The position numbers and the translations under genes are program-made. The notes beneath the pieces were generated by a model that did no database searches, had not been told where the DNA came from, and saw only the letters and a program-made list of their open reading frames with translations. Source: a virus. Taken from it: a stretch of 44,006 nt of DNA. The stretch is from IMG/VR virus record IMGVR_UViG_3300050821_009805, positions 1 through 44,006 of that record; one strand, 5' to 3'. Positions 1 to 38,257 of the stretch are shown here, piece after piece. How positions within the stretch are numbered: the stretch's first letter is position 1; the number at the start of each line of letters is the position of its first letter.

Positions 1-57
1 GGCGATCATCAGCACCGTGCGCTCGTCGTCGGACAGCGGGACGATGGCTTCGCTCAT
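1..57 (-). CDS. Partial gene, N-terminal fragment only
   Basis: An ATG at 57 opens a frame reading MSEAIVPLSDDERTVLMIA that runs off the left edge. Its start overlaps the stop of the glycosyltransferase gene by the usual ATGA arrangement, so it is the next gene of the same leftward operon. Only 19 residues are visible, so no function can be given. Confidence 0.6.
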   Translation of the reverse strand, partial: MSEAIVPLSDDERTVLMIA

Positions 58-2054: not shown

Positions 2055-2059
2055 GTCAT

Positions 2060-21216: not shown

Positions 21217-21334
21217 TGGTTGTGTCCATCCCCTGCGATAGCCACCCTTTATCGATGACACGAATACCGCTCTTGCGCAAGCTGTGTTCAAGCGCGCATG
21301 ATGATTTTTTTTCGGGGTCATGGGAGCGCGAGCG
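21217..21334. promoter_or_regulatory. Divergent promoter region with palindrome
   Basis: 118 bases between divergent genes. The perfect palindrome CTTGCGCAAG lies at 21272-21281. On the plus strand TTGCGC with CATGAT 18 bases on is a possible promoter; on the minus strand TTGAAC overlaps the same palindrome. The site could coordinate both directions. Confidence 0.5.
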
Positions 21335-21517
21335 ATGCGCCATACCCACACCAAACCATGTGACCGTTGTGCCGGCACCGGCCTCGTTATTCGCGACAAG
21401 CGCCGCACCGTTGACGGGCTGGTTGACCCGACCGACGTTATCGAGTGGCCGCAGCAACTGTGCGACAAGTGCGGTGGAAGCGGCGCCGTGGGTTACGTAC
21501 CGGCTCCGCAGGAATGA
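21335..21517 (+). CDS. DnaJ-type zinc-finger mini-protein
   Basis: 60 residues from MRHTHTKPCDRCAGTGLVIR. CDRCAGTG (9-16) and CDKCGGSG (about 44-51) form a DnaJ-like zinc finger. GGGAGCGCGAGCG precedes the ATG at 21335. It is similar in layout to the protein at 19456-19653 on the other strand. It probably binds zinc and a nucleic acid or protein partner. Confidence 0.75.
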   Translation: MRHTHTKPCDRCAGTGLVIRDKRRTVDGLVDPTDVIEWPQQLCDKCGGSGAVGYVPAPQE

Positions 21518-21594
21518 ACGGCATTGCGCCACTGTGGATTTTAGCACTTATTGTGTTGGCGCTGTTGGCTATCGCCTTCGCGCTCAAAAGATGA
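21514..21594 (+). CDS. 26-residue membrane mini-protein
   Basis: MNGIAPLWILALIVLALLAI followed by AFALKR: almost entirely one membrane span with a basic end. The ATG overlaps the zinc-finger stop (ATGA), and the stop overlaps a further ATG (ATGA). Its role is unknown. Confidence 0.6.
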   Translation: MNGIAPLWILALIVLALLAIAFALKR

Positions 21595-21616
21595 AAATAG
21601 ACATGAGGCAGCAGAC

Positions 21617-21808
21617 ATGAGCGACCGTTACGAAATCCGGCGCAGCAACCATGCGAGCCGGGGACGGCACTGGGAAGGCTACTGGCGCGTGTTTGACATG
21701 GACAACGCGCGCTACGTATCCATCGGATTCGAGTCGCTGGATGAAGTCGAGCGCTGCCGCAACGCGCTAATCCTTGACGACCGCCGCTGCCTGGAACCGA
21801 CAAGATGA
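21617..21808 (+). CDS. Hypothetical protein
   Basis: 63 residues (MSDRYEIRRSNHASRGRHWE onward), mixed alpha/beta, with YWRVFDMDNARYVSIGF at the centre. GAGG lies about nine bases before the ATG; an eight-codon frame (21591-21617) bridges from the membrane mini-gene. It overlaps the beta-helix gene by ATGA. Confidence 0.7.
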   Translation: MSDRYEIRRSNHASRGRHWEGYWRVFDMDNARYVSIGFESLDEVERCRNALILDDRRCLEPTR

Positions 21809-22800
21809 AATTAATTCTGGCCCTCGCGTTCATACTTATCGCCACGACTGCCAATGCCGCCACCTCGATCCCGGTTAGCGGCGATCACAGCGGCGTTACC
21901 GATACCACCGCCATCACCAACGCCTGCAAAAAGGGACAAATACCCAGCCTCAACGGCGGGGTTTACTACGTCAGCCAGATCACCAATTGCCGGGTGATCC
22001 GGGGCGATGGCGGGCTGCCAGCATATTTTTGGTATGAAGGGGAAACTGATGTCACCACAGTTATCGGAGTCGGTGGAGGACGCGGCGTTCTTACGTGCCC
22101 TGCCGGAACAGCCTGTCGCTACACAGGTTTTACCGTTAATCCTGGCCCCGGACAGGCTTGCGTCGTCATGGATGGCGTACACGGTTTGCAGCTTGACAGC
22201 TTCAACTGCATTGACCCCGCAGCTCAGGGAGGTGACTGCATTGATGCTCGTGCCCTCTCAGGCAATTACAACCAACTACTCAAAGTGATTGGCGGGGTGT
22301 TTATCCACTGTGGCGGCTGGGGGTTGAACGCGAGCGAGGGGGCCGGCCTCAACGACAGCTTCGTGATTGGGGCAAACTTCTCCAACAATCAACTCGGCAA
22401 CATCAACGTCGGCGCAGGCTTCGGCAACGTCTGGGCTAACAACAAGATTGAAGACACTTATGCCTCTAACGGTATGGTTTTCAGCGGCCCACAAGGCACC
22501 AGCGGCGACAGCGTGATCGTCGGCAACGTCTTCGACCAGAACGGCATCGACATGCAGTTTACCAGTCCTGATTGGTACGGTGTGATCACGGGCAACATCT
22601 CCTGCACAAGCCCGAGCGCTCAGGGGATCATGTTCAGCATTGAAGGCTCGAACTTCATCGCCGGTGGGATCAACACCGCATGCGGGCCCACCTACCGGGC
22701 GCTTGCCGGCTTTGCGCCGTTTCTTGACTTTGCTGATCCCGATCCAAAATACTTTGATGCGACCAGCCAGACTATCGTCGGGCCGAGCGTTCACAATTAA
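21805..22800 (+). CDS. Secreted right-handed beta-helix (pectate-lyase-like) protein
   Basis: 331 residues with a signal peptide (MKLILALAFILIATTANAAT). The body has Asn/Gly-rich repeating strands such as GANFSNNQLGNINVGAGF and NVWANNKIEDTYASNGMVF, GNVFDQNGIDMQF, typical of pectate-lyase-fold tailspikes and polysaccharide lyases. Cys pairs suggest disulfides in the periplasm or outside the cell. It is the only large gene of this plus-strand operon. It may degrade or mask a surface polysaccharide. Its end overlaps the convergent nuclease gene by four bases. Confidence 0.78.
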   Translation: MKLILALAFILIATTANAATSIPVSGDHSGVTDTTAITNACKKGQIPSLNGGVYYVSQITNCRVIRGDGGLPAYFWYEGETDVTTVIGVGGGRGVLTCPAGTACRYTGFTVNPGPGQACVVMDGVHGLQLDSFNCIDPAAQGGDCIDARALSGNYNQLLKVIGGVFIHCGGWGLNASEGAGLNDSFVIGANFSNNQLGNINVGAGFGNVWANNKIEDTYASNGMVFSGPQGTSGDSVIVGNVFDQNGIDMQFTSPDWYGVITGNISCTSPSAQGIMFSIEGSNFIAGGINTACGPTYRALAGFAPFLDFADPDPKYFDATSQTIVGPSVHN

Positions 22801-23252
22801 TGCTGCGCGAGCGCCTTAGCGCGCAGCACGGCTCGCTCTGCCGGCGGAAGCTTGGCCTCGATTGTCGGCACGCCCCACACGTCTAAACGTTCACGCACGT
22901 CGTCAATGCTGCGACAGACTGTGACGGAGCAACCGGCTGCGACCAGCCATTGATGCACGGCAATTTGCTCAGAGCTGAGCGAGCCTTTGCCGGCTTTCAA
23001 CTCGATCCACAGGCATTTGCCGCGATTGATAATGAGGATATCGGGCACCCCGGCCTGCATACCCATGCCTTTGAGGATCGCGCCGCGCAGCTTGCCACCC
23101 CCGCCGTGCCCGATCGCTGTAAAAAACGTAGGGGCAGTTAAAACGCGCGCCAGATAGGTAGCAATGGCGATCTGGAGGGATTGCTCGGGATGGGCGCGAG
23201 GCTTGCTGCTCGAGGCTCGCTTGCGCGACATACGCGCAGGGAGAACGAACAT
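22797..23252 (-). CDS. VRR-NUC family nuclease
   Basis: 151 residues. GHGGGGKLRGAILKGMGMQA, GVPDILI (Asp71), WIELKAGKG (Glu84, Lys86) and SSEQIAVHQWL (Gln96) are the VRR-NUC signature, a PD-(D/E)xK nuclease module found in phage DNA metabolism and in FAN1. It may act on branched or flapped DNA. The ATG at 23252 overlaps the upstream stop (TAATG). Confidence 0.88.
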   Translation of the reverse strand: MFVLPARMSRKRASSSKPRAHPEQSLQIAIATYLARVLTAPTFFTAIGHGGGGKLRGAILKGMGMQAGVPDILIINRGKCLWIELKAGKGSLSSEQIAVHQWLVAAGCSVTVCRSIDDVRERLDVWGVPTIEAKLPPAERAVLRAKALAQH

Positions 23253-23557
23253 TACAGGCCGCTTGCTTCATCGTCGTCATAGTAGACGACTCGATCAGTG
23301 CCGCGCTCAACGATCCGCTCTATTGTGTAACGCTCGTGGCCACAGTCCCTGTCAAGATTGTTGGGCCACTTTCCCGTTTTTGCAGCCTCAAAGTAGAGCG
23401 CCCGATTGCAGTCGCAAGCGTAGTTGCCGTAAGCAAACATCCACTCGATTTGGTAATCTGCGTTTCTGTCCTCATCCCACCCGGCCCAATCAGAGTCGTC
23501 ATAGTAGACGTATCTCTCGCCGGTGGTATTGTCGCGGAGATGGATATCAATCTTCAT
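23252..23557 (-). CDS. Hypothetical acidic protein
   Basis: 101 residues from MKIDIHLRDNTTGERYVYYD. Strikingly, the segment RYVYYDDSDW near the start is echoed by RVVYYDDDEASGL at the end. There is a CDCNRA and a later Cys/His pair. It is very acidic and aromatic, and could mimic nucleic acid, but this is not shown. It lies between an HTH regulator and a nuclease gene. Confidence 0.7.
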   Translation of the reverse strand: MKIDIHLRDNTTGERYVYYDDSDWAGWDEDRNADYQIEWMFAYGNYACDCNRALYFEAAKTGKWPNNLDRDCGHERYTIERIVERGTDRVVYYDDDEASGL

Positions 23558-23561
23558 CACG

Positions 23562-23792
23562 CTATGCCTGCATCAAATATCGTATCTCGGCGCGTTTCAA
23601 CTCGATCAGCGCTTCCCGCACTGGTTCGCGCACGGCACCGGGCAACCGTTCGAGATAGCGGTCGTGAAAGGCACGGCGCCCTTTCTCCAGATCGCTGAGA
23701 AAACCGGGGCTGACCTCCATCAACCGCGCCAGTTCTTTTTGCTCCAGGCCGGCGGCGAGCCGCGCTTGGCGCAGCGTGATTGCGATATCCAT
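23562..23792 (-). CDS. XRE-family HTH repressor-like protein
   Basis: 76 residues from MDIAITLRQARLAAGLEQKE. LRQARLAAGLEQKELARLMEVSPGFLSDLEKGRRAF is a canonical Cro/CI (XRE) helix-turn-helix. The longer frame would cross the operator. The divergent promoter at 23843 carries a perfect palindrome at its -35 edge, and the same core is found at the 9490 promoter, so this protein is the best candidate for the regulator of both. Confidence 0.88.
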   Translation of the reverse strand: MDIAITLRQARLAAGLEQKELARLMEVSPGFLSDLEKGRRAFHDRYLERLPGAVREPVREALIELKRAEIRYLMQA

Positions 23793-23827
23793 AAGCGAGA
23801 TGGTGTCACAGAAAAAAACACGGGTCA

Positions 23828-23841
23828 ACGCCAATTGGCGT
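23828..23841. promoter_or_regulatory. Perfect 14-bp operator palindrome
   Basis: ACGCCAATTGGCGT is a perfect palindrome one base before a TTGACT -35 element and 35 bases from the HTH start codon. Its core CGCNAATTNGCG recurs at 9476-9487. Confidence 0.8.
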
Positions 23842-23842
23842 A

Positions 23843-23870
23843 TTGACTGTTCCGCTGATGAGCGTATAAT
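23843..23870 (+). promoter_or_regulatory. Strong sigma-70 promoter
   Basis: TTGACT (23843-23848), a 16-base spacer, and a consensus TATAAT (23865-23870), about 19 bases before the next start codon. It drives the 23890-24392 operon and abuts the operator palindrome. Confidence 0.85.
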
Positions 23871-23889
23871 GATGATTAGGGAGGCCCGC

Positions 23890-24084
23890 ATGGCAAAAGA
23901 TGTCTCGCTCCAAGGGCATTACACTATCGTCTATTCACCGGACGATGAGGCAGAGAGCGGCAAAGGCTATTATGTCGATCGCTGGTGGACGCGTCGCGAA
24001 AGCAAGTTGTTCGCAACGTGGGCCGAAGCCGACGCATGGGCAGTGCTGCATGGCGGCGTCGATCGTCATAAGCAGCAAGTATGA
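23890..24084 (+). CDS. Hypothetical protein
   Basis: 64 residues (MAKDVSLQGHYTIVYSPDDE onward), mixed alpha/beta and rich in Trp. AGGGAGGCCCGC precedes the ATG. It is the first gene after the repressed promoter, so it is probably an early or immunity-regulated product. Confidence 0.72.
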   Translation: MAKDVSLQGHYTIVYSPDDEAESGKGYYVDRWWTRRESKLFATWAEADAWAVLHGGVDRHKQQV

Positions 24085-24096
24085 GGAGAGAGGCCC

Positions 24097-24294
24097 ATGA
24101 TCAGCCGCGCCTTCTACTACTTCGGATCCGTGCAGATCGATTTTCGAGGCGAACGCGTCGAGGTCGAATATGACGCAACTCAGGGTGATGTCGATGAGTG
24201 GTGGTTCTCCCGGCCCGAATTGCGGGCGCTCGACCTGACGCTGGACGAGCAGGAAGAGATCGCCGAGCGCGTGTGGGAGGATGCGCAGCTATGA
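24097..24294 (+). CDS. Hypothetical protein
   Basis: 65 residues (MISRAFYYFGSVQIDFRGER onward), acidic in the second half (TLDEQEEIAERVWEDAQL). GAGGAGAGAGGCCC precedes the ATG. Not recognised. Confidence 0.7.
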   Translation: MISRAFYYFGSVQIDFRGERVEVEYDATQGDVDEWWFSRPELRALDLTLDEQEEIAERVWEDAQL

Positions 24295-24392
24295 TCTGGC
24301 TCACTGAGGCGGCGCGGCTTATCCTGACGATCGCTGCAATCGCGCTCACCGTCATTGCGCTTGCGGGCGCCTATATCATGATATTGTCGTGA
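24291..24392 (+). CDS. 33-residue membrane mini-protein
   Basis: MIWLTEAARLILTIAAIALT with a continuing hydrophobic tail: one long membrane span. The ATG overlaps the previous stop (ATGA). It resembles other mini membrane proteins in this genome. Confidence 0.62.
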   Translation: MIWLTEAARLILTIAAIALTVIALAGAYIMILS

Positions 24393-24430
24393 TTGAACAA
24401 GCTTCGGCGGGTCTCCCACCTCGCCGGAGC

Positions 24431-24474
24431 AGCCTGCGGATGATGCGTCCGTCCCCACGGCCTCTCCGCAGGCT
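24431..24474. repeat. 10-bp inverted repeat between convergent genes
   Basis: AGCCTGCGGA (24431-24440) and TCCGCAGGCT (24465-24474) pair perfectly around 24 bases that contain an inner CCGT/ACGG stem. A weaker CGGCG/CGCCG hairpin precedes it. It lies between convergent genes, so a bidirectional transcript-end structure is likely, although there is no T-run. Confidence 0.7.
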
Positions 24475-24503
24475 GAACCGTCGCCCTTCGCAGAAAGGCT
24501 CCA

Positions 24504-24881
24504 TTACGTCAGCGGTGTTGGCGCGGTAGCCCTGACCTTGCTGATCAGGCCGTTGAGATAGGCGACCGCCCCCGGTTGTAGCGCGAGGTTTGCCACAAGT
24601 TCTTCCGAGGCGCACCCCGCGGTGATCCAGATCGCATAGGGTCCGGCGATTGGTGCTAGTGCCATCGCCTGGTTGCACAATCCCGCTACCACTGCTTGGT
24701 TATTCTGTGCGTTCTGCACCTGTGCCGGGGTGATCGGGCCAGCGCAAGCGCCGAGAACCAGAGCAGCGGCGACAAGAGATGTGCGGGCCTGCCTGCCAAA
24801 CCAACCCAGCCAGTGGCAGCCTATGTATGCTGGGCATGGGCCTCCAACTCTACCCGCTCGGGAGGCGTACGTTCTAATCAT
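24504..24881 (-). CDS. Lipoprotein
   Basis: 125 residues from an ATG at 24881 with GAGGGA upstream, overlapping the endolysin end by eight bases. After a polar N-terminal stretch a hydrophobic segment ends in the lipobox LVLGAC, giving lipidation at that Cys. The mature part starts AGPITPAQVQNAQNNQAVVA, a helical Gln/Asn-rich region. Placed directly after the endolysin, it could be an outer-membrane spanin subunit (o-spanin), but it is larger than usual. The unusually long pre-lipobox part suggests a later start may be used. Confidence 0.7.
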   Translation of the reverse strand: MIRTYASRAGRVGGPCPAYIGCHWLGWFGRQARTSLVAAALVLGACAGPITPAQVQNAQNNQAVVAGLCNQAMALAPIAGPYAIWITAGCASEELVANLALQPGAVAYLNGLISKVRATAPTPLT

Positions 24882-26079
24882 GGCTTCCCTCATACGCAGC
24901 GACGATCGCCGCCAAGGTTTTGGGCCCCCATTTTCCATCGACCACGATGTCGGCGCCGTCCACCTTGAGCCAATACTGGAGCGTTTCCAGCGCAGGCATG
25001 GCGCCGATGTCGGACATATCGGATACGGCGGGGACGACCGGTGGTGATGGCGTAGGTGTCACGGGCGCTGGCGTGGCGGGTTGAGCAACCGTGGCCAGTG
25101 CATCGAGGTAGAGCCACTTGGCCCGGTTGGCCGTCCACACGTCGACATAGTGCTGATCAGGTCTCCCCTGCGCCGCGGCGCCATATCCCTCGTTATACCC
25201 AGCCGACCATTCGGCCAGTGTCGGCGGGCGCCCGAAATGCGTCTGTAGGTAGTTCCATCCCTGCGAGGCGTACTTAAGCCCGTAAAGGATACCGACCTTC
25301 GGGTCGTACATCTGCGCTGGATCGCCGACAAGTCCGAGTCCTGCCGCAGTGCTGTCGAGCACCTGCATCAAACCATACGAGGCAACGCCACTTGGCTCCT
25401 GCCGATGTGCATTTGGATCGAAGTTTGATTCCGTCTCGCAGAACGCCATGAATGAGCTGCGCTGAAACCAGTTGCCGAATTGCGCCGCGTTGACGACATC
25501 GAATGCCGCCAAGGCCGCGCTTTCTCCGTCTGTTAATCCAGCGTGACTGACGACCGGAATAGCGGCAGGCGGTGCGGGAAGTGGAGCGACGGTCGGCGTG
25601 GCCGTTGCGTCAGGATACCATGTCCCAGCGAATAGGCCGGTCTGCTGATCGACCGTGCAGCCTTGGATGTGGTCGCTGTCGCGGAAAGAGTGCGGCTGGT
25701 CAGGCAGCCCCCAATCGTAACCGCTAATGACGGCCCGGTCGGGTGTGGAAACCTGAGCTGCCAACCCGACACAGAACGTCCAGTCGCCGTCCCAGGACGC
25801 CTGACCATTAACCAGCTTGGCAAAGTCACATGCCAACCCGTAATGATGGACGCCCACCTTGCTGAGCTGCGTCGCACCCTGTTGGAAAAGCTGCGTCTGT
25901 CTCTCCGAGCTGCGGTACGTCTCGGTGACAATCAACTCGATGCCGAGCGCTTTGCTCGCCGCCATAAAGGCGGCGACTTGGCCCCGAAACGTCGGCTCCA
26001 GCAAAGCCATGTCCCGGATAGGCTCAGCATTGTGAAACCGGGAATCGACCTGTAAGACATCGGTATAGAAATTGCCCAT
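24874..26079 (-). CDS. Endolysin with peptidase, transglycosylase and C-terminal domain
   Basis: 401 residues. The N-terminal domain resembles L-Ala-D-Glu or VanY-like M15 peptidases: TETYRSSERQTQLFQQG (about 52-68) and GVHHYGLACDFA (75-86), with DSDHIQG near 135. A Pro-rich linker is followed by an SLT lytic transglycosylase: FCETESNFDPNAH (Glu catalytic, about 212-224), ASYGLMQVLD and EWSAGYNEGYGA. The C-terminus (about 350-400) looks like a peptidoglycan-binding unit. Two cell-wall activities in one phage lysin is less usual. It could alternatively be virion-associated, but its position beside holin-like genes favours lysis. Confidence 0.85.
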   Translation of the reverse strand: MGNFYTDVLQVDSRFHNAEPIRDMALLEPTFRGQVAAFMAASKALGIELIVTETYRSSERQTQLFQQGATQLSKVGVHHYGLACDFAKLVNGQASWDGDWTFCVGLAAQVSTPDRAVISGYDWGLPDQPHSFRDSDHIQGCTVDQQTGLFAGTWYPDATATPTVAPLPAPPAAIPVVSHAGLTDGESAALAAFDVVNAAQFGNWFQRSSFMAFCETESNFDPNAHRQEPSGVASYGLMQVLDSTAAGLGLVGDPAQMYDPKVGILYGLKYASQGWNYLQTHFGRPPTLAEWSAGYNEGYGAAAQGRPDQHYVDVWTANRAKWLYLDALATVAQPATPAPVTPTPSPPVVPAVSDMSDIGAMPALETLQYWLKVDGADIVVDGKWGPKTLAAIVAAYEGSHD

Positions 26080-26096
26080 GCCTTAATTATGCTCTT

Positions 26097-26411
26097 TTAA
26101 GAGTGTATATGAAACTGTGCTTGTACCAAAACGCCAACCACCGAAAAAAGAATTAAGATAACGCCGCCAGCCACCGTCCAGAGAAGGCTCTGAATGCGCT
26201 GAATGGACTTTTGATTTCGGTCGTCCATCAGGAACTGATCGGTACGAAGCTTGGCAAGCTCAAGTGTCAATTCGTTCCTGGCGGTGGAGAGTTCAGTTCG
26301 AGTACCCCGGACCTCGTCGCGCTGTGCCTCATAGCGCCGCCCGCACTCCTCGATATGCGACCTGAGCTGCATCGCCACGAGTTTCGCTCCGAACATTACT
26401 CCATCACCCAT
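26097..26411 (-). CDS. Coiled-coil protein with C-terminal membrane anchor
   Basis: About 104 residues from the ATG at 26411 (MGDGVMFGAKLVAMQLRSHI). A long charged coiled-coil region is followed by a single membrane span (SLLWTVAGGVILILFSVVGV) near the C-terminus. Earlier in-frame starts exist as far as just after the terminator. The start is uncertain because no clear ribosome site is present. It fits a lysis-accessory (spanin-like or antiholin-like) role but no motif proves it. Confidence 0.6.
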   Translation of the reverse strand: MGDGVMFGAKLVAMQLRSHIEECGRRYEAQRDEVRGTRTELSTARNELTLELAKLRTDQFLMDDRNQKSIQRIQSLLWTVAGGVILILFSVVGVLVQAQFHIHS

Positions 26412-26513
26412 AACGATGCCCGAGCGAAATCGTTCAGGGCATGATACTAACGTAATATTTTCAACAGCGTGCTCAATCATTGAGGGCATTTGGGGCGTAA
26501 TTGATACATATGG

Positions 26514-26542
26514 TTGAAAAAAAGGGGCCTTAATGGCCCCTT
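26514..26542 (-). terminator. Rho-independent terminator
   Basis: AAGGGGCC / GGCCCCTT (26522-26529 and 26535-26542) form an 8-bp stem with a five-base loop, followed on the minus strand by a run of seven T. It lies 27 bases after the stop of the Ig-like gene and should end that transcript. Confidence 0.85.
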
Positions 26543-26568
26543 CTATCAACCGCTTGACACCATCATCC

Positions 26569-26880
26569 TTACGGTAGCGTAACAAACTGCAAAGCCGTCA
26601 CGGTGATGGCGCCAGCCGTGACGGTGATCGTTAGAACGCCCGTCACGCCATTAGGCGTATACGTCGCCGTGGCAGGACCGGTCTGGTCCGCGGTGCCGGC
26701 GGCAGCTGAAAAGTCAAAGCCGACGCCATCGGCATTGGGGGCAACGGTAACGCCAGTCAGAGCCGGGTCGAGCGCCCAGGTAATGTCCGCCGGAACGATG
26801 GCGATTCCGTCCTGGTTTTCGACGCCAATTTCGACAGTGGCGCCTGCGGCGATCGTTTCGGAGGTGACGACGGTCGGCAT
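26569..26880 (-). CDS. Ig-like beta-sandwich protein, putative decoration protein
   Basis: 103 residues from MPTVVTSETIAAGATVEIGV; AGGAG precedes the ATG at 26880. Alternating Val/Thr strands (GVTGVLTITVTAGAITV) and a TATYTPNGV turn fit a bacterial Ig-like fold, as used by phage decoration or fibre-linked domains. It is followed by a strong terminator. The same frame stays open upstream to 27042 through a membrane span and basic stretch, which may be chance. Confidence 0.7.
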   Translation of the reverse strand: MPTVVTSETIAAGATVEIGVENQDGIAIVPADITWALDPALTGVTVAPNADGVGFDFSAAAGTADQTGPATATYTPNGVTGVLTITVTAGAITVTALQFVTLP

Positions 26881-27038
26881 GTGATGTCTCCTATGGTATC
26901 TGCGCAAGTTAACAAACTTTAGCGCCCTTACGTGCCGGTGGAGGTGATGGCGCTTCCGGCGACGAATCAAGCGCTTTTCCATTACGTAAATTATCACGAA
27001 TACAATTCCCGCGAAAGATAGGGAAACTACCCTAGCGT

Positions 27039-27161
27039 TCAACGCGCGTATAAAACAATCAGAATTAACACGATCACGATGACGACCCCTACGCCCAGCC
27101 AGTGGCTTTTTTTATGGGCGGCACTGATGAACCGTCCTTGGGCATTCCGGTCAGAGTCCAT
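27039..27161 (-). CDS. 40-residue membrane mini-protein
   Basis: MDSDRNAQGRFISAAHKKSH, then one membrane span (WLGVGVVIVIVLILIVLY) and a short basic end. The ATG lies three bases after the stop of the two-span protein. It could be a holin partner. Confidence 0.62.
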   Translation of the reverse strand: MDSDRNAQGRFISAAHKKSHWLGVGVVIVIVLILIVLYAR

Positions 27162-27164
27162 GGC

Positions 27165-27395
27165 TCACCTTAACATCGGCACCATGCCGCCTCCGCCCAC
27201 AAGCATTGTCAGGAACCAGATGAGGCATAGGAGCGCGATGATCAGCAGCGCGATCTTGACTACCATCGGTGGGACGGGAATGCCAAGCTGACCCAGCACC
27301 CACAGGATGACCCAGCCGATCCCTACAAGGATGCAGAGAAAGACGAGGAACCAGAGGATGTTGATCGCCAAGGTTAACATCGTTGCACCATGCAT
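27165..27395 (-). CDS. Two-span membrane protein, holin-like
   Basis: 76 residues. Two membrane spans (ILWFLVFLCILVGIGWVILW and VKIALLIIALLCLIWFLTML) are separated by a short loop LGIPVPPM. GGGGAG lies about ten bases before the ATG at 27395. Small two-span proteins of this kind in lysis regions are candidate class II holins. The tandem small membrane genes here may form a holin/antiholin set. Confidence 0.68.
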   Translation of the reverse strand: MHGATMLTLAINILWFLVFLCILVGIGWVILWVLGQLGIPVPPMVVKIALLIIALLCLIWFLTMLVGGGGMVPMLR

Positions 27396-27425
27396 GAGTT
27401 TGGCACTCCCCGAAACTGTCGGAAA

Positions 27426-27569
27426 TTACCTAGAACCATTGCGCTTCTCCAAAGCAGCAAGCGTTTTTTCGCAGACCGCGAGCCGCGCCTGGATGACAAT
27501 GAGGTCGTTCCGCAACGATAAGATCATGGCGCGAAGGCGGGACAGGATGGCATTAGCCGATTCCTTCAT
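27426..27569 (-). CDS. 47-residue coiled-coil protein
   Basis: MKESANAILSRLRAMILSLR onward, amphipathic helix with heptad-like Leu/Ile spacing. The ATG overlaps the holin-like gene stop (ATGA). Role unknown. Confidence 0.6.
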   Translation of the reverse strand: MKESANAILSRLRAMILSLRNDLIVIQARLAVCEKTLAALEKRNGSR

Positions 27570-27985
27570 TCTTGGCGTTCATTTGGCACACCCCCGATTG
27601 GCGACTGGTTTAGCGCTGGTGGTGAGGGAGCTGGGGTAGCGATCGGGGTTGGTTTCGGCGTTAGCGGTGACCCAGGATTTAACACGGGGTTGTCGTCCGC
27701 GGTCGTCGGAATGCTCGTCGCCAGCGACGCGCCCTGCGCGGCGATCGTCGCATCCTTGTCCTGGCTGCCTTTCGAGCTGCCGAAATAAAAACTCACCGCG
27801 ACCGTCGCGAGGGCCACCGTCGCGCTAAACATCTGGGTTCGCAGCGTGTCGTTCCCCATAACACAGGAAGCAACCAGCGCCCCGGCAAAAATCAGAAGTA
27901 TCAAATACGATAGAGTTGGGACGACCCACCACGGCAAAAGAGGGCCAGGTGGTGGAACAACAGGCGGCGGCACAGGGTCAGCCAT
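27566..27985 (-). CDS. Two-span membrane protein, holin candidate
   Basis: 139 residues. A Pro-rich N-terminus (PPPVVPPPGPLLPWW) is followed by two spans (TLSYLILLIFAGALVASCVM and MFSATVALATVAVSFYFG) and a Pro/Thr-rich soluble tail. This layout is seen in prophage holin-like proteins. The tail may regulate. A candidate small RNA lies just upstream on the opposite strand, overlapping the promoter-proximal leader. Confidence 0.65.
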   Translation of the reverse strand: MADPVPPPVVPPPGPLLPWWVVPTLSYLILLIFAGALVASCVMGNDTLRTQMFSATVALATVAVSFYFGSSKGSQDKDATIAAQGASLATSIPTTADDNPVLNPGSPLTPKPTPIATPAPSPPALNQSPIGGVPNERQE

Positions 27986-28026
27986 GAATAGTCTTTACCA
28001 CTTATCGCTTTTCGTGTATAGGCGAT

Positions 28027-28102
28027 GGTGTGCCCGATTGTTCGGGTACGGGTACACCTCAGATGACAACTTGCCCCGTCTCACAGCGGGGCTTTTTATT
28101 TT
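28027..28102 (+). ncRNA. Candidate phage small RNA (antisense to the lysis operon gap)
   Basis: On the plus strand, against the surrounding genes, a promoter TTTACC (27994-27999), 17-base spacer, TATAGG (28017-28022) predicts a start near 28027. Exactly there begins GGTGT (28027-28031), which pairs with ACACC (28054-28058) around an inner CCCGA/TCGGG stem (28033-28037/28042-28046). After a single-stranded linker, GCCCCG/CGGGGC (28073-28078/28087-28092) is followed by TTTTTATTTT, a rho-independent terminator. The transcript would be about 75 bases and antisense to the leader of the holin candidate. No open frame is seen in it. Confidence 0.6.
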
Positions 28103-28395
28103 CGCAAAGTCCTCCGGTCCAGATGTGCCATGATCTCGCTGGTCGTTGGCCGCGTCTGCTCCAGAACCTTGATCCGGTCTAACAACAGGTCATGCTCGTG
28201 GCGGGCGTCATCGTGAAGCTGATCCAATTGCCGATTGATGTCGTCCCGGAGCTGCTTGAACTGGTCGTTAACCTTGCCCCGGAACTCTTCATGCTCGCGA
28301 ATTGATAAGGATTTGTCGAAAGATCGAGCAATCAGCGCAATGGCTGAAATGAGAACGGCACCGATGGCGACAATGACGGACCAATCCGTGCTCAT
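28096..28395 (-). CDS. Membrane-anchored coiled-coil protein, i-spanin-like
   Basis: 99 residues: N-terminal membrane span (WSVIVAIGAVLISAIALIA), then a long charged coiled coil (FRGKVNDQFKQLRDDINRQL and HDLLLDRIKVLEQ). This N-in, helical-body layout matches inner-membrane spanins. Its stop overlaps the T-run of the candidate small RNA. It lies between the tailspike-like gene and holin candidates. Confidence 0.65.
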   Translation of the reverse strand: MSTDWSVIVAIGAVLISAIALIARSFDKSLSIREHEEFRGKVNDQFKQLRDDINRQLDQLHDDARHEHDLLLDRIKVLEQTRPTTSEIMAHLDRRTLRK

Positions 28396-28402
28396 TTTTA
28401 CC

Positions 28403-30451
28403 CTAGTTTGTCGTCCCGAACGTCCATTCGGCCAGAATCCGTTTGGTGCTCAACGTCGAATTTGCATATGCCTGTCCAAGGTCATTGTAAGACGTAAATT
28501 GACCCGCATTATTGAGGACCAAGTGAACTGGCGAGCCAACATTCGTAAATCCAGCTGCAACGCCCGAATTTGTGTTAAAGGGCTGACAAAGCAGCGGTAC
28601 ACCGCTAATCGCATTAACCGCGCCACTGACTGTGCTCGGATATGTCAGATCAACATGAACCGTGCATCCGTGCTGGGTCTTCAAGTATGTCGCAATGACG
28701 TTGCTGAACGTCAAGCTCGCGCCGGACGCATCGGCTGGCGTCCAATTCCACGGGCCGATGCCAAAGTAATGCCCCTCGCCGTCTACGCCCCAGATGGCTT
28801 CAGTGCCCGTGCTTAATGGTGCTCCGGTTGACGACGGTGCCGCGTGTGCGTCCAAAGACCAACCAAGAATGTGAATGCCGCCATCTGATGGCACCCACGA
28901 ACCACCGACCGTGCGGTTCACGTCGGTATCGCAGACTGTGTAATCGATCTGTACGTCAGTCGGTGTGAAGAGAGCGCCGCCTGGCGCGGCGATCTGCAGG
29001 CAATCTCCCTGCGCCCCAATGCCATTAAGCTTGAACAATTGGATATTGGACATCGATGTCTGTACTACGAAACCAAGGCGCATCCCATAAGTGCCGGCGG
29101 TGTTCCCGTCGTAGAGCCAGTGCAGACGCTCAAAGCGATCAGTGATAACCGCCGCGCCGCAGGGATTGCAAGACGTGTCACCGATGATACCGCCGCTGCC
29201 GCCGACGCCTGGCGATGTCGCGAAAAGGTCGTGGAACCAATCGTTTTCCAGCCCCCCGCCCCACGTATTAGTAACGCCAGTGCTTACTAAGATAAACGCC
29301 GGTCCTCCTATATTTCGATCAACGCCAAGCCAGCCGTATTCGGAATCAAGTATATTGTTTATCTTTAATCCAGTACTACAAATATTAGCGCAATCGATTC
29401 CAATACGCAGGAGGTTGATCGAAGCCGCCGGTCCTTGTAACGTCAGAGGAATCGTTGCACCTGCGCCTGTCCAGATAAACTGCGTGTTCAGCGACGGTGT
29501 GGTGCTGCTTGTTTGCTCGGGATATTGCGGTTCACCCTTTATCGTTACGCCATTGCAAGACGATAGCGTCGAAGGCGAACCATTGCCGATAGTGTGAGCG
29601 GCTGCCAACTGAAACGGAGAGGTCACAAACGGGATAAGAATAGGAACGTGACTGGAGCAGGCATAGGTAATAGCGCTACTGAGGGCGGCATCGGCATTGC
29701 TGCCGCCTTTCGCTCCCCACTGACGCAGATCAGCGCCCTGAACCGGGAACACGGCATAAAAACTGTTCCCGTCGCCACTCGTCGTGTTGACGCAAGAGCC
29801 ACCATCGTTTACCCGCGAGTTGGCGGCGCAGGTTCCCGTTTCAGGTTGATACCATAAGGGAGCAGCCCCCAGCCCAGCGCTGTAATCGTCCCGCCAGACG
29901 CCTTTTCCATATGTCGCGGTCAGGCTCGCCTGGAGGGTCGCTAGTGTTGCCACATGAGCCGATAACAATCCGCCATCAGCAACGGTCGTCCCGCCATTCC
30001 ATATGACGACATCGCCTACCGTTGGCGCTGGGTTAGTCGGACCAATGACGTTGCCGTTACCGGCGCCAGGGAATGGATAATTCACACCATTTAGATTAAT
30101 GTTAAGACCGAGTGGGGCAGCGCCACCAATGGAGTTGTAAGAAAACAACCCGCCCCCCAGAGCATTGGCCCCCAAACATAATTGGTGATAGCCACCAGGC
30201 GCATTGATCAGCGCATCGTTAATGCAGAATGGCGTCCCGGTATTGGTGATCCCCATCTCGGTCAGATAGCCTTGACCGTTCTTGTTCGATCCAGCCGAGC
30301 CCCCGCCATCGACCGCGACGGTGCATGTGCTGTTCTGGCAGCGAACCGTGTGTCCCGGCGTAAAAGAACCACTCGGGACAATTTGCCCTTGGTTCTGCGC
30401 CAACGCTGGCGAAGCAGCCAGCAAAAGTGCGCCCAGAAGCCACTTGAACAC
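28403..30451 (-). CDS. Large secreted tailspike-like beta-helix protein
   Basis: 682 residues from a GTG at 30451 with GGGGG upstream. It begins with a signal peptide (MFKWLLGALLLAASPALA), then a Gly/Asn-rich fibre-like region. A pectate-lyase-type body follows, with the entry motif GADLRQWGAKGGSNADAALS (about 238-257) typical of tailspikes (DVRxFGAKGDG), and a C-terminal beta domain. It would bind or cut host polysaccharide. A cleavable export signal is odd for a virion tailspike. It shares this oddity with the protein at 21805. Confidence 0.8.
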   Translation of the reverse strand: MFKWLLGALLLAASPALAQNQGQIVPSGSFTPGHTVRCQNSTCTVAVDGGGSAGSNKNGQGYLTEMGITNTGTPFCINDALINAPGGYHQLCLGANALGGGLFSYNSIGGAAPLGLNINLNGVNYPFPGAGNGNVIGPTNPAPTVGDVVIWNGGTTVADGGLLSAHVATLATLQASLTATYGKGVWRDDYSAGLGAAPLWYQPETGTCAANSRVNDGGSCVNTTSGDGNSFYAVFPVQGADLRQWGAKGGSNADAALSSAITYACSSHVPILIPFVTSPFQLAAAHTIGNGSPSTLSSCNGVTIKGEPQYPEQTSSTTPSLNTQFIWTGAGATIPLTLQGPAASINLLRIGIDCANICSTGLKINNILDSEYGWLGVDRNIGGPAFILVSTGVTNTWGGGLENDWFHDLFATSPGVGGSGGIIGDTSCNPCGAAVITDRFERLHWLYDGNTAGTYGMRLGFVVQTSMSNIQLFKLNGIGAQGDCLQIAAPGGALFTPTDVQIDYTVCDTDVNRTVGGSWVPSDGGIHILGWSLDAHAAPSSTGAPLSTGTEAIWGVDGEGHYFGIGPWNWTPADASGASLTFSNVIATYLKTQHGCTVHVDLTYPSTVSGAVNAISGVPLLCQPFNTNSGVAAGFTNVGSPVHLVLNNAGQFTSYNDLGQAYANSTLSTKRILAEWTFGTTN

Positions 30452-30459
30452 GATACCCC

Positions 30460-30624
30460 CTATCGGCGGCTCTTCCGCTTGCTCCGCGTGGATGACCGCT
30501 TTGATTTCTTTGCGAAGTCCCGCAATTGGGATTCGCTCATGCCAGTCTCTGTCCGCTTGCCGGCACGTTTCCGCGCTAACTCGGCACTCATAAAGCGCCG
30601 CTGTGTTTCTGATGAACTAGGCAC
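30460..30624 (-). CDS. Small basic phage protein (RFMxAELARKRAG type)
   Basis: 54 residues from a GTG at 30624: MPSSSETQRRFMSAELARKR, then GMSESQLRDFAKKS and a very basic Ser/Arg/Lys tail. AAGGAG lies seven bases before the GTG, which decides the start over the longer frame. This SxxQRRFMxAELARKRAG pattern is common in short proteins of alphaproteobacterial phages and prophages, without an assigned role. The charge suggests DNA or capsid contact. Confidence 0.78.
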   Translation of the reverse strand: MPSSSETQRRFMSAELARKRAGKRTETGMSESQLRDFAKKSKRSSTRSKRKSRR

Positions 30625-31144
30625 CAAAATGCTCCTTGGCAAATAGCTCTGCATATCGCTTCAGAAGCCATGTATTATATGAAGTTGTACAAATCACCAA
30701 ATTTTCGTGTCTATTATCATCTTTCATCATATTAACGTGGTGAACGCACTCACCTTTTCTTATTCGTCTTCCCAACACTGTTTCAGCTATCACCACATGC
30801 TCAAGCCTCTGTTTACCTCTTTGATTGTACACCCTGTAGCCAGAGCTCTGCAAAAAAGAAGGGCCATCACGGAATTGAGTTTCAGCAAAACACGCCCGGC
30901 AACGCTTCCCTTGAGGATTACTCGTTAAATGAGGGCAATGCGTCGTACGGTACATCGATTTCCCATCTATCTGCCCTACATAATGATTGTGTTGTCTTCT
31001 ATAACGATTTACAGCCGTTTGAGGTAAATTATTCAGCTTTTGAATATGGCGTTTTTGCTGTAGCGATTTCATATCGAATCCCAAGAGCTTCTTTAGTTGT
31101 CTGGGTTTCATAATGGCCAAAACGTTTTCACTCTCTGCGGGCAT
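30617..31144 (-). CDS. HNH homing-type endonuclease
   Basis: 175 residues. LEHVVIAETVLGRRIRKGE and the HHVNMMKDDNRHENLVI core (His-His-x-Asn ... Asn-x-x-His-Glu-Asn) are the HNH_3 signature of free-standing phage homing endonucleases; CPHLTSNPQGKRCRAC adds a zinc-type Cys set. The start at 31144 has GGAGG upstream. The gene is clearly AT-richer than its neighbours, suggesting recent entry. It sits between virion-assembly genes. Confidence 0.88.
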   Translation of the reverse strand: MPAESENVLAIMKPRQLKKLLGFDMKSLQQKRHIQKLNNLPQTAVNRYRRQHNHYVGQIDGKSMYRTTHCPHLTSNPQGKRCRACFAETQFRDGPSFLQSSGYRVYNQRGKQRLEHVVIAETVLGRRIRKGECVHHVNMMKDDNRHENLVICTTSYNTWLLKRYAELFAKEHFGA

Positions 31145-31436
31145 GGCGACCCCTCCACCAGATCACGGCGAGCACAAAGAGACCGTACAGCCCCACGCCG
31201 ACGAGCTGCGCCTGCGTCGGGTTGGCGATCACCATCAGCCACAGCACAAAGGCGCTTGATACGATCGCCAGGTCGGTTAGCGCGGCCAGCGCGACGAGGC
31301 TCTTCTGGCTCAGCGACTTCATCGAAAGGAACATCAGGCTGGTGAGCGCATGCGTCAGGTTAGGCTGCGGCGGTGGGGCCGGCGCTATCTCGGGAACATC
31401 GGTCTCCTCGACCGCCGTCAGCCGGGTGCTACGCAT
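31128..31436 (-). CDS. Two-span membrane protein
   Basis: 102 residues: a Pro-rich cytoplasmic start (EIAPAPPPQPNLTHAL), then two membrane spans (LVALAALTDLAIVSSAFVLW and LVGVGLYGLFVLAVIWW) and a basic end (RGRHARRE). Eight-base overlap with the preceding gene. May be a minor virion or ejection-related membrane protein; not recognised. Confidence 0.68.
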   Translation of the reverse strand: MRSTRLTAVEETDVPEIAPAPPPQPNLTHALTSLMFLSMKSLSQKSLVALAALTDLAIVSSAFVLWLMVIANPTQAQLVGVGLYGLFVLAVIWWRGRHARRE

Positions 31437-31665
31437 CGGCGTGATCCCCCCGGATCTCGCGTGCCCAATCCTTCATATTGCGTCCTCCGGCGTCTTCATC
31501 ACTAACCTTAGCATTTAACTTCTCGTCCCCCAAATAGAGCGTGGTCGTGCTTTTGAGCACGTCGATGCGGATGTCGATTGCCGCCTTCATTTCCGGCGCA
31601 TTGACCTCATCGATGAGGTCTTCGGCAAGTTGGAGGAGTTTCTGACGGAGAGGGTTTTCACTCAT
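31429..31665 (-). CDS. Hypothetical protein
   Basis: 78 residues (MSENPLRQKLLQLAEDLIDE onward), helical then acidic, coupled to the large ejection protein by ATGA. Small helper proteins are frequent here in podovirus ejection clusters. No family recognised. Confidence 0.7.
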   Translation of the reverse strand: MSENPLRQKLLQLAEDLIDEVNAPEMKAAIDIRIDVLKSTTTLYLGDEKLNAKVSDEDAGGRNMKDWAREIRGDHADA

Positions 31666-33470
31666 TGGATGCCCAGTGCTGAATGTTGGGGTGATTGATA
31701 GCCTACCGCTGCGCCGATGGCCGGGATGGTTCGCTGAATGCCGGAGGAAACAGCTTCTCGGCTGCGATCAAAAGCGGACGGCTGCGTCTGCCGAAGTTTT
31801 TCCGCCGCCTCAAACATCTGTTTCACCGCTCTATTAGGACTGAACATATGTTCTCTCATGCTCCTGAAAATTTGGAACCCCGCTGCCGACGCTAGCGCGC
31901 TAGGATCAAAATGCACCAGAGCATGAATCAGCTGATCACCAGAGGCGATATCCAAGAGCGTGCTTCCAAGGCCACCCTTTACATTTCGCCCTTGAACAAT
32001 AGACCTGTGGACGACATCCTTTTCGATGGAGCGGACCTGACCGTAAGCGTTCTTGAGCGCTTGATATCCCGGACCTGTGGCTTTTTCGATAGTCGTGTCC
32101 AGCGCCTCACGCATTTTATTGGCCACCATCGCATCGATAGCCGCCGATCGTGATGCGTAATTTGGCGTAGCCTGCCGATAGAACGCCTGTAGTTTCCCGT
32201 TGAAATTTTTAATGGCTTCCTGCGCCTCTAACGGAGTATACGCTACTTTCGCAGCGTAGTTATCTGCCAATTGATTTGCGGCCCTGACGACATCACTATC
32301 GCTTTCAGCTAAAGTAGACTTCCCAAGTTTTCGCAATTCCTTGACAATAGGATTAAGATCAACCCACAGGCCTTTGGTTTTTTTTAGAGCCTCTTGCTCG
32401 ATTGCGGACATACGATCAAGGTTAGCTCTGGCGGCGTTTAATTCTTTTCTGGCCGCAGCCTGCCCCTCTATCGAGTTCATGCCGGACAATCGCATTTCAG
32501 CATCTCTAACTGCCAGACTTGCATCCATCGCTTTTGATTGAGCCTGCGCCAAGTCTCTCTGGAATGCCTGTGGAACAGGTGCGCCTACATTGGTTGCGGC
32601 AGACGCCGCTGTAGCTTTAGCGTTGTATTCCTCAAATATTTTCCGCTTTGTCTGATCTATGGACTCCGCGAACTGTGCAAGGCTCTGTGGAGCCTGTCCG
32701 ACGATTTTGTCGGGTCTAGTCGGATCAGTAAGCTCCAGAGAACCTTTTCTATCGAGAATGTGGTCTAATGCGCCTCGGAAACCGGCATAAGCATCATTCG
32801 CCTTGGTGACAGTCCCCTTCCCAGCCACGCCTGGCTTGATGTATTGCGTATAAACGTGCTTGATAAAATTTTCGGCAGCTTCCGGCGTCCCGAGAGAAAG
32901 GGCATGAGATAGCGCCCCAAACGCTCCACCACCTGCTCCGCCTTCAAGCCCGCCCCTGACAAGCTGTCCCGCCTTGCCTTTCGCGAAATCGCCTGAAGTC
33001 TCGGGGGTCGCGGCACCACTGATTGCGCCGCCCATCGCGCCTTGGACAATGCCAGACCCAACCCGGCCCATCAGGCTAGCGCCACCCATCTCGGGCGCGA
33101 TGATCGACAAGGGTGCGGTCAGAGCAACATCACCGGCAATCCCGCCGACTGTGCGGCCCCAGCCTTTGTTGTAACCCTCTTTCTCAAGCTGCTTCTCGCG
33201 CTGCTGCAACTGAACATCAACGGCCTTGGCCGCTTCCGGCTGGACCTGATTGGCCTTTTCTTGCTCAGCCGTGTACGCAATCGGTGGCGGATCGAGCGTC
33301 GCGTGTGCGCCAATCTGTCCAAGACCGTAAATCTTATCCATCAAGCCCGCGCCAAAGCCTTGGGCGAACGATGGCGGTTGATCTAACGGAACATTATCCG
33401 GCAATCGCTGTGCACTGCCGGCAGACGGCGCGTCGAGCTTCACATCGTCAGGGAGTTTTACGGCTGCCAT
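31662..33470 (-). CDS. Internal (ejection) virion protein
   Basis: 602 residues. After a polar start come Gly/Ala-rich amphipathic segments (GRTVGGIAGDVALTAPLSII, GMGGAISGAATPE) and then a long coiled-coil/helical body (about 230-520) rich in Ala, Gln and Lys. This composition, no catalytic motif, and its place between a lysozyme-like ejection protein and small helper genes match internal core proteins that form the channel across the envelope during DNA entry. Confidence 0.72.
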   Translation of the reverse strand: MAAVKLPDDVKLDAPSAGSAQRLPDNVPLDQPPSFAQGFGAGLMDKIYGLGQIGAHATLDPPPIAYTAEQEKANQVQPEAAKAVDVQLQQREKQLEKEGYNKGWGRTVGGIAGDVALTAPLSIIAPEMGGASLMGRVGSGIVQGAMGGAISGAATPETSGDFAKGKAGQLVRGGLEGGAGGGAFGALSHALSLGTPEAAENFIKHVYTQYIKPGVAGKGTVTKANDAYAGFRGALDHILDRKGSLELTDPTRPDKIVGQAPQSLAQFAESIDQTKRKIFEEYNAKATAASAATNVGAPVPQAFQRDLAQAQSKAMDASLAVRDAEMRLSGMNSIEGQAAARKELNAARANLDRMSAIEQEALKKTKGLWVDLNPIVKELRKLGKSTLAESDSDVVRAANQLADNYAAKVAYTPLEAQEAIKNFNGKLQAFYRQATPNYASRSAAIDAMVANKMREALDTTIEKATGPGYQALKNAYGQVRSIEKDVVHRSIVQGRNVKGGLGSTLLDIASGDQLIHALVHFDPSALASAAGFQIFRSMREHMFSPNRAVKQMFEAAEKLRQTQPSAFDRSREAVSSGIQRTIPAIGAAVGYQSPQHSALGIQ

Positions 33471-35668
33471 TTAGAGCCATCCGGCGCCTGGTAAACGTCT
33501 TTGCCTTGATATGTCCCGATCTTCTTTGAGCCGGCAGGGATGCCGGGGGGCAATGCTTCGGTTGGCCCTCCTCCACCCTTGCCCGCTTTATCCGTAGTTT
33601 CCAGCGCTTCCTTCGTATGGTCAAACAGCTTCTCGCGAAACGTTCCTTGCCGCTTTTCATCCTGACCAGCGTACTGAAATTCCAAACCGCGCATCTGACC
33701 TAACATGAGGCGCCGCGCTGTCTGGATCACACCCTTGAGCTGTTCAGGTGAACTGGACCGATCAAAGTCTGCTTGCAACTCAAGACGTTCCGCTCCCGTA
33801 CCCGCGTTGTTGCCTAAAACAGCTTTAACAAGCTCGTCGGCTACAATCTTTTTAGCGACATCGAAGTCCACCGGACCTTCATAGCCAAATTCTACGAGAA
33901 CGCGGTTCTTAAGGGCATTAAGCTTTGGCGTATCCTTATTCTGCAAGGCATCGGCTAACTGCTGCAAAACGTCGGTATGATCGATCGCCACATTAAGCGA
34001 GCGTATCGTATTTCCCTGCGCGCCTGACCCAAACGCCTGTTCCATCGCCCCCAATGCTCGGATGCGAGCAGCAGCCATAGCCACCGCTTCAAAGCCGGCC
34101 TCAGGATGCTCCTCCATAAATTTCTGCATGGCGATGGCAGGCGCTGAGCGCGGCTGGCTTGTTCCCCTTAATCTGACACTGCCGCCCGGAGGAACCTCCA
34201 GCGGTTCATTGGTACCGGCCATGAACCATGAGCCATCGGAAGATTGATAAGCCGCTACATTTGTTCTAGTAACCTTACCGTCTGGTCCAACAATATCGAT
34301 GTTCTTCGCTGCGGAGGGTTTAGAGAACGTGCCGGCTGCTTGGCGCTTGGCCTCTCCCTCATGCTGCAAGTGCTCTGCGGGTGTAACCGGGCGACCCTCT
34401 TTTTGTTCTAACTCCTTATCTTTCTGCTCCACAGAGGCGGCTATCTCTTTCTCTTCGCGGGCTTTCTTGGCATTGTCGTGTTGCGCCTCAGTAATCTGCG
34501 TCGTTAATTGCTGAACCCGCAGACTTTTCTCGATGTTTTCGACGCTCTTCGGATCGAGATGCTGCTGAAGCTGGTACGCAGTCGAAAGCGTCCCAAGCTC
34601 CGTGACCTTTTGATCGTAACTCTTGCGGGCGTCCTCCACGATGTCGCGCGCTTCACCATGCAGCAACTCGATCAGCTTCAAGCCGTTGTCGTTGTGGTCC
34701 TTCCAGCGCTTGTAGGCGATGTCATAGGCCCGCACGTCGGCCTGGTTCGCTGCCTGCAACATCTCGCCAGCCGCGTTGATCGCAGCCGTATGGTTCTTTC
34801 CAAAGAACCCGCCGAGCATCGCCAGCCCGATGGCCGCGCCCGCCCACTGGTTCCAATTCTCACGCATGTCCTGGGGCGGATGCTCGCTGCTCAACTCCCA
34901 CTTGGCCATCGCCGCCCGTGCGACCTTGCGCAAGTCCTTCCCTTCTGCGAGCGCGTCGTCATACTCCTTGCTGCGCTTCTGAATGTCCTGCTGCCAGGTT
35001 TGCAAGTATGCGCTGGCACCCGCGTTAAAGGAACCAAGCGCGTTAGATCGCAGGTTTGTCTCCTCGCTTCCCGGCGAGCCGGCGGGACGCTCAAACGAAC
35101 TGGTGAATACCCCGTATCCCTCCTGTTCGCTGATATTCGGGTTCATCAACTCCGCTTTGTGCTTTGCGGCAATCGCATCGCCCCCGTTAAATTCTGAAAT
35201 GGAAAACTTCGCATCCGCCCGCGCAATGGCCACGGGGTCGTTCATATCGACTTTGTTATTTTTTAGATAGTTTGCAAACTTTACGGCTCGCTCACCGTGA
35301 TGCTGGGTAAGACCGATAGAAGTAGGATTGCCGTATTCGTCATAATCACCTGTTGCATAAACATTCCAACCGGATTCCACACCAACGCGACGAGACGCTC
35401 CTTCAACCGCAGCCGGCGGATATCCCGCCGCGAGCCATTCGTCGCGCCACGCATCTTTGATCGGATTTGATTGACCGCCAATATCCTTAGGCATAGCGGC
35501 GATCTGCTCACCCGGGATTGAGTTGGGCAGAACCGCTGGATGACTAGAATTATTCGGCAATGGCAATGGCTGATCGCGGCTGATGTCCGAAGGCTGGAAC
35601 GTCGCCCCGCTCGGCAGGGTAACGATAGACCCACCAGGCGGCGCTGGCTCGGCGACAAGTCCGTTCAT
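33458..35668 (-). CDS. Internal virion protein with lysozyme-like domain
   Basis: 736 residues. The first 200 residues include a lysozyme/transglycosylase-like region: WLAAGYPPAAVEGASRRVGV then ESGWNVYATGDYDEYGNPTS and IGLTQHHGERA (catalytic Glu-Ser-Gly-Trp near residue 93). This is followed by a long coiled-coil body (about 330-480) and a Gly-rich end. It resembles podovirus ejection proteins that cut a local hole in peptidoglycan at infection. Coupled with its neighbours by short overlaps. Confidence 0.78.
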   Translation of the reverse strand: MNGLVAEPAPPGGSIVTLPSGATFQPSDISRDQPLPLPNNSSHPAVLPNSIPGEQIAAMPKDIGGQSNPIKDAWRDEWLAAGYPPAAVEGASRRVGVESGWNVYATGDYDEYGNPTSIGLTQHHGERAVKFANYLKNNKVDMNDPVAIARADAKFSISEFNGGDAIAAKHKAELMNPNISEQEGYGVFTSSFERPAGSPGSEETNLRSNALGSFNAGASAYLQTWQQDIQKRSKEYDDALAEGKDLRKVARAAMAKWELSSEHPPQDMRENWNQWAGAAIGLAMLGGFFGKNHTAAINAAGEMLQAANQADVRAYDIAYKRWKDHNDNGLKLIELLHGEARDIVEDARKSYDQKVTELGTLSTAYQLQQHLDPKSVENIEKSLRVQQLTTQITEAQHDNAKKAREEKEIAASVEQKDKELEQKEGRPVTPAEHLQHEGEAKRQAAGTFSKPSAAKNIDIVGPDGKVTRTNVAAYQSSDGSWFMAGTNEPLEVPPGGSVRLRGTSQPRSAPAIAMQKFMEEHPEAGFEAVAMAAARIRALGAMEQAFGSGAQGNTIRSLNVAIDHTDVLQQLADALQNKDTPKLNALKNRVLVEFGYEGPVDFDVAKKIVADELVKAVLGNNAGTGAERLELQADFDRSSSPEQLKGVIQTARRLMLGQMRGLEFQYAGQDEKRQGTFREKLFDHTKEALETTDKAGKGGGGPTEALPPGIPAGSKKIGTYQGKDVYQAPDGSKWQP

Positions 35669-38253: not shown

Positions 38254-38257
38254 CGCA

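Follow-up and report, generated by a model that had tools for sequence, protein, structure and literature searches.

Antisense small RNAs are already known as a kind in phages, as the parts of PMC12197685 and PMC4933390 drawn on here describe, and a table in PMC12197685 lists the 77-nt OOP RNA of lambda and the 68/69-nt sar RNA of P22 among them. For Pseudomonas phage PAK_P4, the same source describes an antisense RNA at the endolysin gene, PAK_P4as15, that is proposed to delay lysis, and for PAK_P3 the antisense RNAs over the structural region are stronger early in infection and are proposed to prevent late-promoter leak (PMC4933390). In phage BTP1, STnc6030 runs antisense over late genes (PMC7067206, in the portion consulted). 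As far as these portions of the literature go, few phages have documented antisense sRNAs, and the cases described there came from RNA data.

The locus considered here lies in a viral record from IMG/VR, of which we analyzed one stretch of 44,006 nucleotides (the window), and consists of a promoter-like sequence, a predicted short RNA, and an intrinsic terminator placed on the plus strand inside a minus-strand late operon (Table 1). Like OOP and sar, the product would be a short phage RNA pairing with mRNAs of its own phage, but those RNAs target the control genes cII and ant, whereas this candidate sits in a lysis operon and leaves the start of its target uncovered. With PAK_P4as15, as described in the consulted text, it shares the position of an antisense RNA at a lysis gene, although PAK_P4as15 is ∼550 nt long and tied to the endolysin gene, whereas the candidate is ∼75 nt and intergenic. 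The early PAK_P3 RNAs resemble it in being proposed to stop late-gene leak and differ in their greater length (mean 176 bp or over 300 bp) and, in the account available, in lying within genes in all cases but one. Given these published precedents, the unit can probably be filed among the known phage antisense sRNAs; it has the features of that class in a putative promoter of its own on the opposite strand, with a core identical in a relative, and in a short predicted transcript ended by an intrinsic terminator. In the open-licence literature searched we found no report of this lysis-operon antisense element.

Anatomy and setting of the plus-strand unit

The unit occupies the 110-base gap between a 99-aa gene and a 139-aa gene. 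A sequence-only reading of this DNA had described its parts on the plus strand between 27994 and 28102, and all of the listed elements were found at those coordinates; its figure of about 75 bases for the RNA agrees with the predicted length. The claim that the RNA begins exactly at the hairpin base is plausible but finer than the data allow, the start being resolvable only to ∼28027–28030. The region 28022–28101 folds at −34.6 kcal/mol compared with −22.1 ± 2.9 kcal/mol in shuffles (n = 200), and none of the 200 dinucleotide shuffles matches it (z −4.4). The strong terminator, described earlier as a textbook one, is the first of the 24 terminator-like sites listed in a consensus scan of 20000–36000.

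The proposed sigma-70-like promoter stood up less completely. It is present and its core is kept in the relative, but it agrees with the E. coli consensus at only 4/6 + 4/6 positions, and it does not appear in the list of the consensus scan because that scan demands T as the last base of the −10 element. With up to two mismatches, the promoter pattern occurs four times in the window, against 3.48 expected, and the only exact copy is this one. Given a promoter that is weak relative to the consensus and a pattern at chance level, the window sequence alone is suggestive rather than convincing. A loose promoter-plus-terminator rule returned 0.075 units per simulated 44-kb sequence (3/40), a rate that is not unbiased because the unit was already known when the rule was drawn up. 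No Rfam 15 family matched at its gathering score anywhere in the 44,006 bases.

Those genes near the unit that have a family match or are conserved in the relative all lie on the minus strand: tail-type genes come first, followed by the genes for the 99-aa and 139-aa proteins, some smaller ones, and one that is endolysin-like. The hydrophobic 139-aa protein is plausibly a holin; PHROG gave no match to it at E 0.01, nor did Pfam above the cut-off. The complement of the TTTACC hexamer falls at the Shine-Dalgarno position of its gene. A plus-strand ORF (27846–28133, 95 aa) crosses the terminator and runs opposite two minus-strand genes with homologs in the relative, and it is plausible that no plus-strand gene needs this terminator. 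As to a temperate life, the Pfam integrase family PF00589 was found in neither the window nor the record of the relative, both of which are possibly fragments. A possible clue to the host is a weak match between a single protein of the window and a Bradyrhizobium phage.

Table 1. Coordinates of the unit, its neighbors, and other features noted in the window (G001, the relative)
Feature	Position	Strand	Remarks
Source record, 44,006 bases			IMG/VR virus record IMGVR_UViG_3300050821_009805
Promoter-like TTTACC-N15-TG-TATAGG (17-base spacer)		+	In gap inside minus-strand late operon
−35-like hexamer TTTACC	27994–27999	+	TTTACCAC identical in G001
Extended −10-like element TG-TATAGG	TG 28015–28016, TATAGG 28017–28022	+	TGTATAG identical in G001
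Predicted small RNA, ∼73–76 nt	28027–28102	+	Fold z −4.37 for 28022–28101
5′ hairpin	28027–28058	+	−18.2 vs −12.5 kcal/mol on complement
Single-stranded linker UCAGAUGACAACUU, 14 bases	28059–28072	+	9/14 positions kept in G001
Intrinsic terminator	GC stem-loop 28073–28092, T-tract TTTTTATTTT 28093–28102	+	Identical in G001: T-tract 9/9, stem-loop 13/20 columns
139-aa hydrophobic protein gene, holin candidate	27566–27985	−	Downstream in late operon
99-aa gene, hydrophobic N-terminus	28096–28395	−	phrog_1009 (unknown function); stop codon overlaps T-tract
Endolysin-like gene	24874–26079	−	PHROG endolysins, Pfam SLT; further downstream; 75% identical in G001
Best sigma-70-like promoter in 20000–36000, TTGACT-16-TATAAT	23843–23870	+	11/12; overlaps start region of minus-strand helix-turn-helix regulator gene 23562–23891
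Glycosyltransferase, methyltransferase, and TPR-domain genes together	54–5117		Left end of window
736-aa protein gene	33458–35668	−	Tail-lysozyme domain and a Bradyrhizobium phage protein, both weakly matched

Conservation in a relative and reach of the unit

A scan with the methyltransferase gene, which gave 24 viral-contig loci, yielded the relative IMGVR_UViG_3300050821_008385 (59,660 bases; G001), whose homologs of the flanking genes show protein identities of 60% (99-aa gene), 79% over 75 residues (139-aa gene), and 75% (endolysin). On the opposite strand, upstream of its 139-aa homolog, G001 carries TTTACCAC-N13-TGTATAG followed by a different 5′ hairpin, a linker that ends in AACUU, and the terminator GCCCTGCAACAGCAGGGC-TTTTTATTT (L031 17301–17206). 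An extra 106-aa gene separates the 99-aa and 139-aa homologs in G001, and the unit still adjoins the 139-aa gene.

All 15 core bases of the promoter are identical between the two phages (8/8 in the first element and 7/7 in the second), as are 6/13 positions of the spacer; for the RNA, 11/37 columns are identical in the leader and hairpin (another 11 of the 37 being gap columns) and the linker and terminator columns are as given in Table 1. The intergenic alignment scored 87.5 compared with 44.6 ± 6.2 in shuffles (n = 500, maximum 74.5), and the pre-terminator part of the RNA by itself shows no significant similarity (p 0.11). The hairpin is more stable on the sRNA strand than on its complement in the window and also in G001 (−9.5 vs −5.3), and the same holds for the whole RNA (−34.8 vs −27.1 in the window, −26.6 vs −24.2 in G001). 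On the late-mRNA strand the stem is not followed by a U-tract, and the fold is poorer than on the sRNA strand. Because the start and stop signals recur unchanged in G001 at the orthologous spot, the element is likely real, and from the comparison of the two sequences we regard the unit as probably a genuine sRNA gene. The proposal of an sRNA gene opposite lysis-type genes is borne out to the extent that G001, which has the flanking genes, also retains the promoter, the architecture, and the terminator.

Among the relatives examined, only two records, the window and G001, carry the unit. Of 28 loci with a homolog of the 99-aa gene it is present in that of G001 only, the other 27 having been read ∼620 bases downstream (fewer at contig ends). 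A strict promoter-plus-terminator rule applied to 14 sequences recovered it only in the window and in L031 and L033, the loci with the G001 copy, and a looser rule on 45 sequences added only a site at 26685 on the minus strand of the window and one place in L071, both with a different promoter. With a two-sequence profile, only the window and G001 copies were recovered at E < 0.1 over 147 sequences, and in a further 80 loci all matches were partial, lay on the terminator side, and had E values of 0.057 or more. A covariance model run on 50 records returned G001 at E 2.4e-24, as is bound to happen with a model that includes this sequence, and no credible copy in the other 49; a weak hit in G054 (E 0.19) was rejected because both the T-tract and the unit are missing there. 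Among 50 records searched, 10 further ones contain distant homologs of the 139-aa gene, and the promoter-plus-terminator rule did not find the unit at the seven such loci scanned (L150–L156) or in the larger loci L034–L040, L084, and L104.

Pattern searches gave a similar picture. The promoter-plus-terminator pattern retrieved 28 stretches from viral contigs, with the same element only in G001, and 42 stretches from one genome per species, with nothing convincing; a second viral pattern retrieved at least 120 stretches, with no homologs of window proteins among the 80 loci listed. Nucleotide searches of phage and plasmid collections returned only short terminator matches, and no relative emerged when genome contigs were scanned with the 139-aa pair. 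Ten near-identical contigs of another phage group (L041, L047, L049, L050, L054, L055, L056, L059, L064, and L066) have a near-identical promoter, TTTACCA-N5-CGCATT-N3-TGTATAG, with a spacer resembling that of the window and G001 and a strong terminator after it, in an element of ∼104 bases. This element was rejected as a copy despite the similar promoter and spacer, being a same-strand leader before replication-type genes.

Candidate roles of the predicted RNA

The role that we favor, with a rough probability of 0.4, is that of a brake, acting as a cis-antisense RNA, that holds down leaky lysis-operon expression. Judged by the sequence and its conservation, a host RNA polymerase of the sigma-70 type would start the RNA at ∼28027–28030 and stop it at 28093–28102. 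Before strong late transcription sets in, the RNA would pair along its full length with stray late mRNA reading through between the 99-aa and 139-aa genes, and the antisense promoter would also fire against the late polymerase. The duplex would then be cut or the late transcript stopped, keeping the downstream 139-aa holin-like gene and the endolysin off, until strong late transcription, through excess mRNA and head-on polymerases, turns the RNA off in its turn. Transcription of the RNA, its pairing, its timing, and any effect on lysis are inferences, as would be a delayed lysis or an effect on host mRNAs, the two actions suggested earlier.

Any late mRNA that continues across the gap is complementary to the whole of the predicted RNA. 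This RNA overlaps the intergenic leader of the holin candidate, as had been proposed, but does not cover the start region of that gene, since, with 28024 taken as its 5′ end, it lies ∼38 nt upstream of the start codon of the 139-aa gene, and 37 nt upstream in G001. Blocking the region paired by the RNA changes the predicted accessibility of the start site from 0.47 to 0.42 in the window and from 0.29 to 0.33 in G001. With the start region uncovered and its accessibility hardly altered, a direct block of translation of the P22 sar type, which would place the RNA over the ribosome site, is not favored, and duplex cleavage, a premature stop of the late transcript, or polymerase collision fit better. 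The divergence of the RNA body with retention of its signals and shape suits action in cis, because the target is the complementary strand of the same DNA and both change together. Against a purely cis mechanism, the linker is kept more than the hairpin (9/14 vs 11/37), which action in cis does not require. Part of the reason for the conservation of TTTACCAC could be use as a weak ribosome-binding site of the minus-strand gene; the predicted pairing of its complement as a ribosome site is only −3.2 and −2.9 kcal/mol.

The retention of the linker speaks for the main rival to the cis brake, an Hfq-type sRNA that acts in trans on host (or phage) mRNAs through its linker and is related to, or mimics, the alphaproteobacterial alpha-r8 RNAs (MmgR/SuhB/Sis). 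The position opposite the late genes would then merely give shut-off once late transcription starts. We consider this possible but rather unlikely. The unit shows the classic order of hairpin, single-stranded linker, and U-rich terminator, which is also that of trans-acting Hfq sRNAs. The alpha-r8 RNAs (MmgR, SisA-D; RF00519, suhB) are likewise ∼77 nt long, with a 5′ hairpin, a single-stranded part, and a terminator; in the parts of the reports consulted, MmgR is described as Hfq-dependent in Sinorhizobium (PMC7143759) and in Caulobacter it was Hfq that led to the finding of SisA (PMC12559287). The G001 RNA weakly matches RF00519 (22.5 bits, E 0.0054), and against the RF00519 consensus the pre-terminator parts beat ∼97% of shuffles for G001 (p 0.0255) and ∼99% for the window (p 0.01), a modest signal. 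RF00519-like RNAs also adjoin lysis genes in other phage records.

However, G001 falls short of the RF00519 gathering score of 41, on which membership of the alpha-r8 family was rejected, and the window RNA is unlisted even at E 10. Both RNAs lack the CU-rich 10-mer of the family (UUUCCUCCCU in the consensus, ACACCUCAGAUG in the window, and AUUUCCCCAACUG in G001), and, at E ≤ 1, 13 of 14 control genomes also contain weak RF00519 matches. The best Rfam score of G001 is instead to RF02278, a Betaproteobacteria toxic small RNA, which was itself rejected (26.3 bits vs a cut-off of 50, with the best columns in the terminator and the window unlisted). Pairing of the linker revealed no trans target in either phage that beat shuffles, 79% and 49% of which were at least as good.

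Three further RNAs of this type were noted. In Bradyrhizobium phage ppBeUSDA76-2 (OP596614.1, L027), an unannotated RF00519-like RNA (38253–38331, plus strand; 34.8 bits vs the cut-off of 41) lies just 3′ of the lysis genes and has a nearly intact CU-rich motif. Those in L178 (2091–2155, plus strand) and L226 (3035–3099, plus strand) score 30.6 and 29.8 bits and have their ends across from the 3′ end of a cassette on the minus strand that encodes small hydrophobic proteins and, in L178, a Pfam phage lysozyme; the latter two are not an unbiased sample, since the search pattern demanded AACTT before a GCCC...GGGC terminator. The RF00519 cut-off was passed by 0/40 and 0/50 records in the two sets searched. 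A broader idea, which we rate as a long shot, is that alphaproteobacterial phages carry fast-evolving sRNAs descended from or imitating host alpha-r8 (MmgR/Sis) and parked at lysis cassettes; the gene in the window and G001 would have been turned against the late operon, its RNA reprogramming the host early and being titrated by late lysis mRNA. If this is true, alpha-r8-derived phage sRNAs would couple host control to lysis timing.

That the promoter core and terminator are conserved and the 5′ body of the RNA is not would also suit a model in which transcription itself acts, a head-on promoter and terminator slowing late polymerases by interference or as a roadblock with the RNA as a by-product, but the hairpin architecture, kept with strand-biased stability in both phages, suggests that the RNA matters, and we think this improbable. 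It is equally improbable that there is no sRNA gene, and that a promoter-like string, weak against the E. coli consensus and at chance level when two mismatches are allowed, lies by accident near a terminator or that an intercistronic hairpin protects or separates the late mRNAs, as the exact pattern and the terminator recur at the orthologous spot in G001 and the late-mRNA strand has the poorer fold and no U-tract.

The candidate cis-antisense brake represents an sRNA prediction made from sequence and backed by a relative, in which promoter and terminator are kept and the RNA body has diverged. If transcribed, the RNA would constitute a small, testable lysis-timing switch in soil phages, and this suggests that lysis operons would be worth scanning for sRNA genes on the opposite strand.
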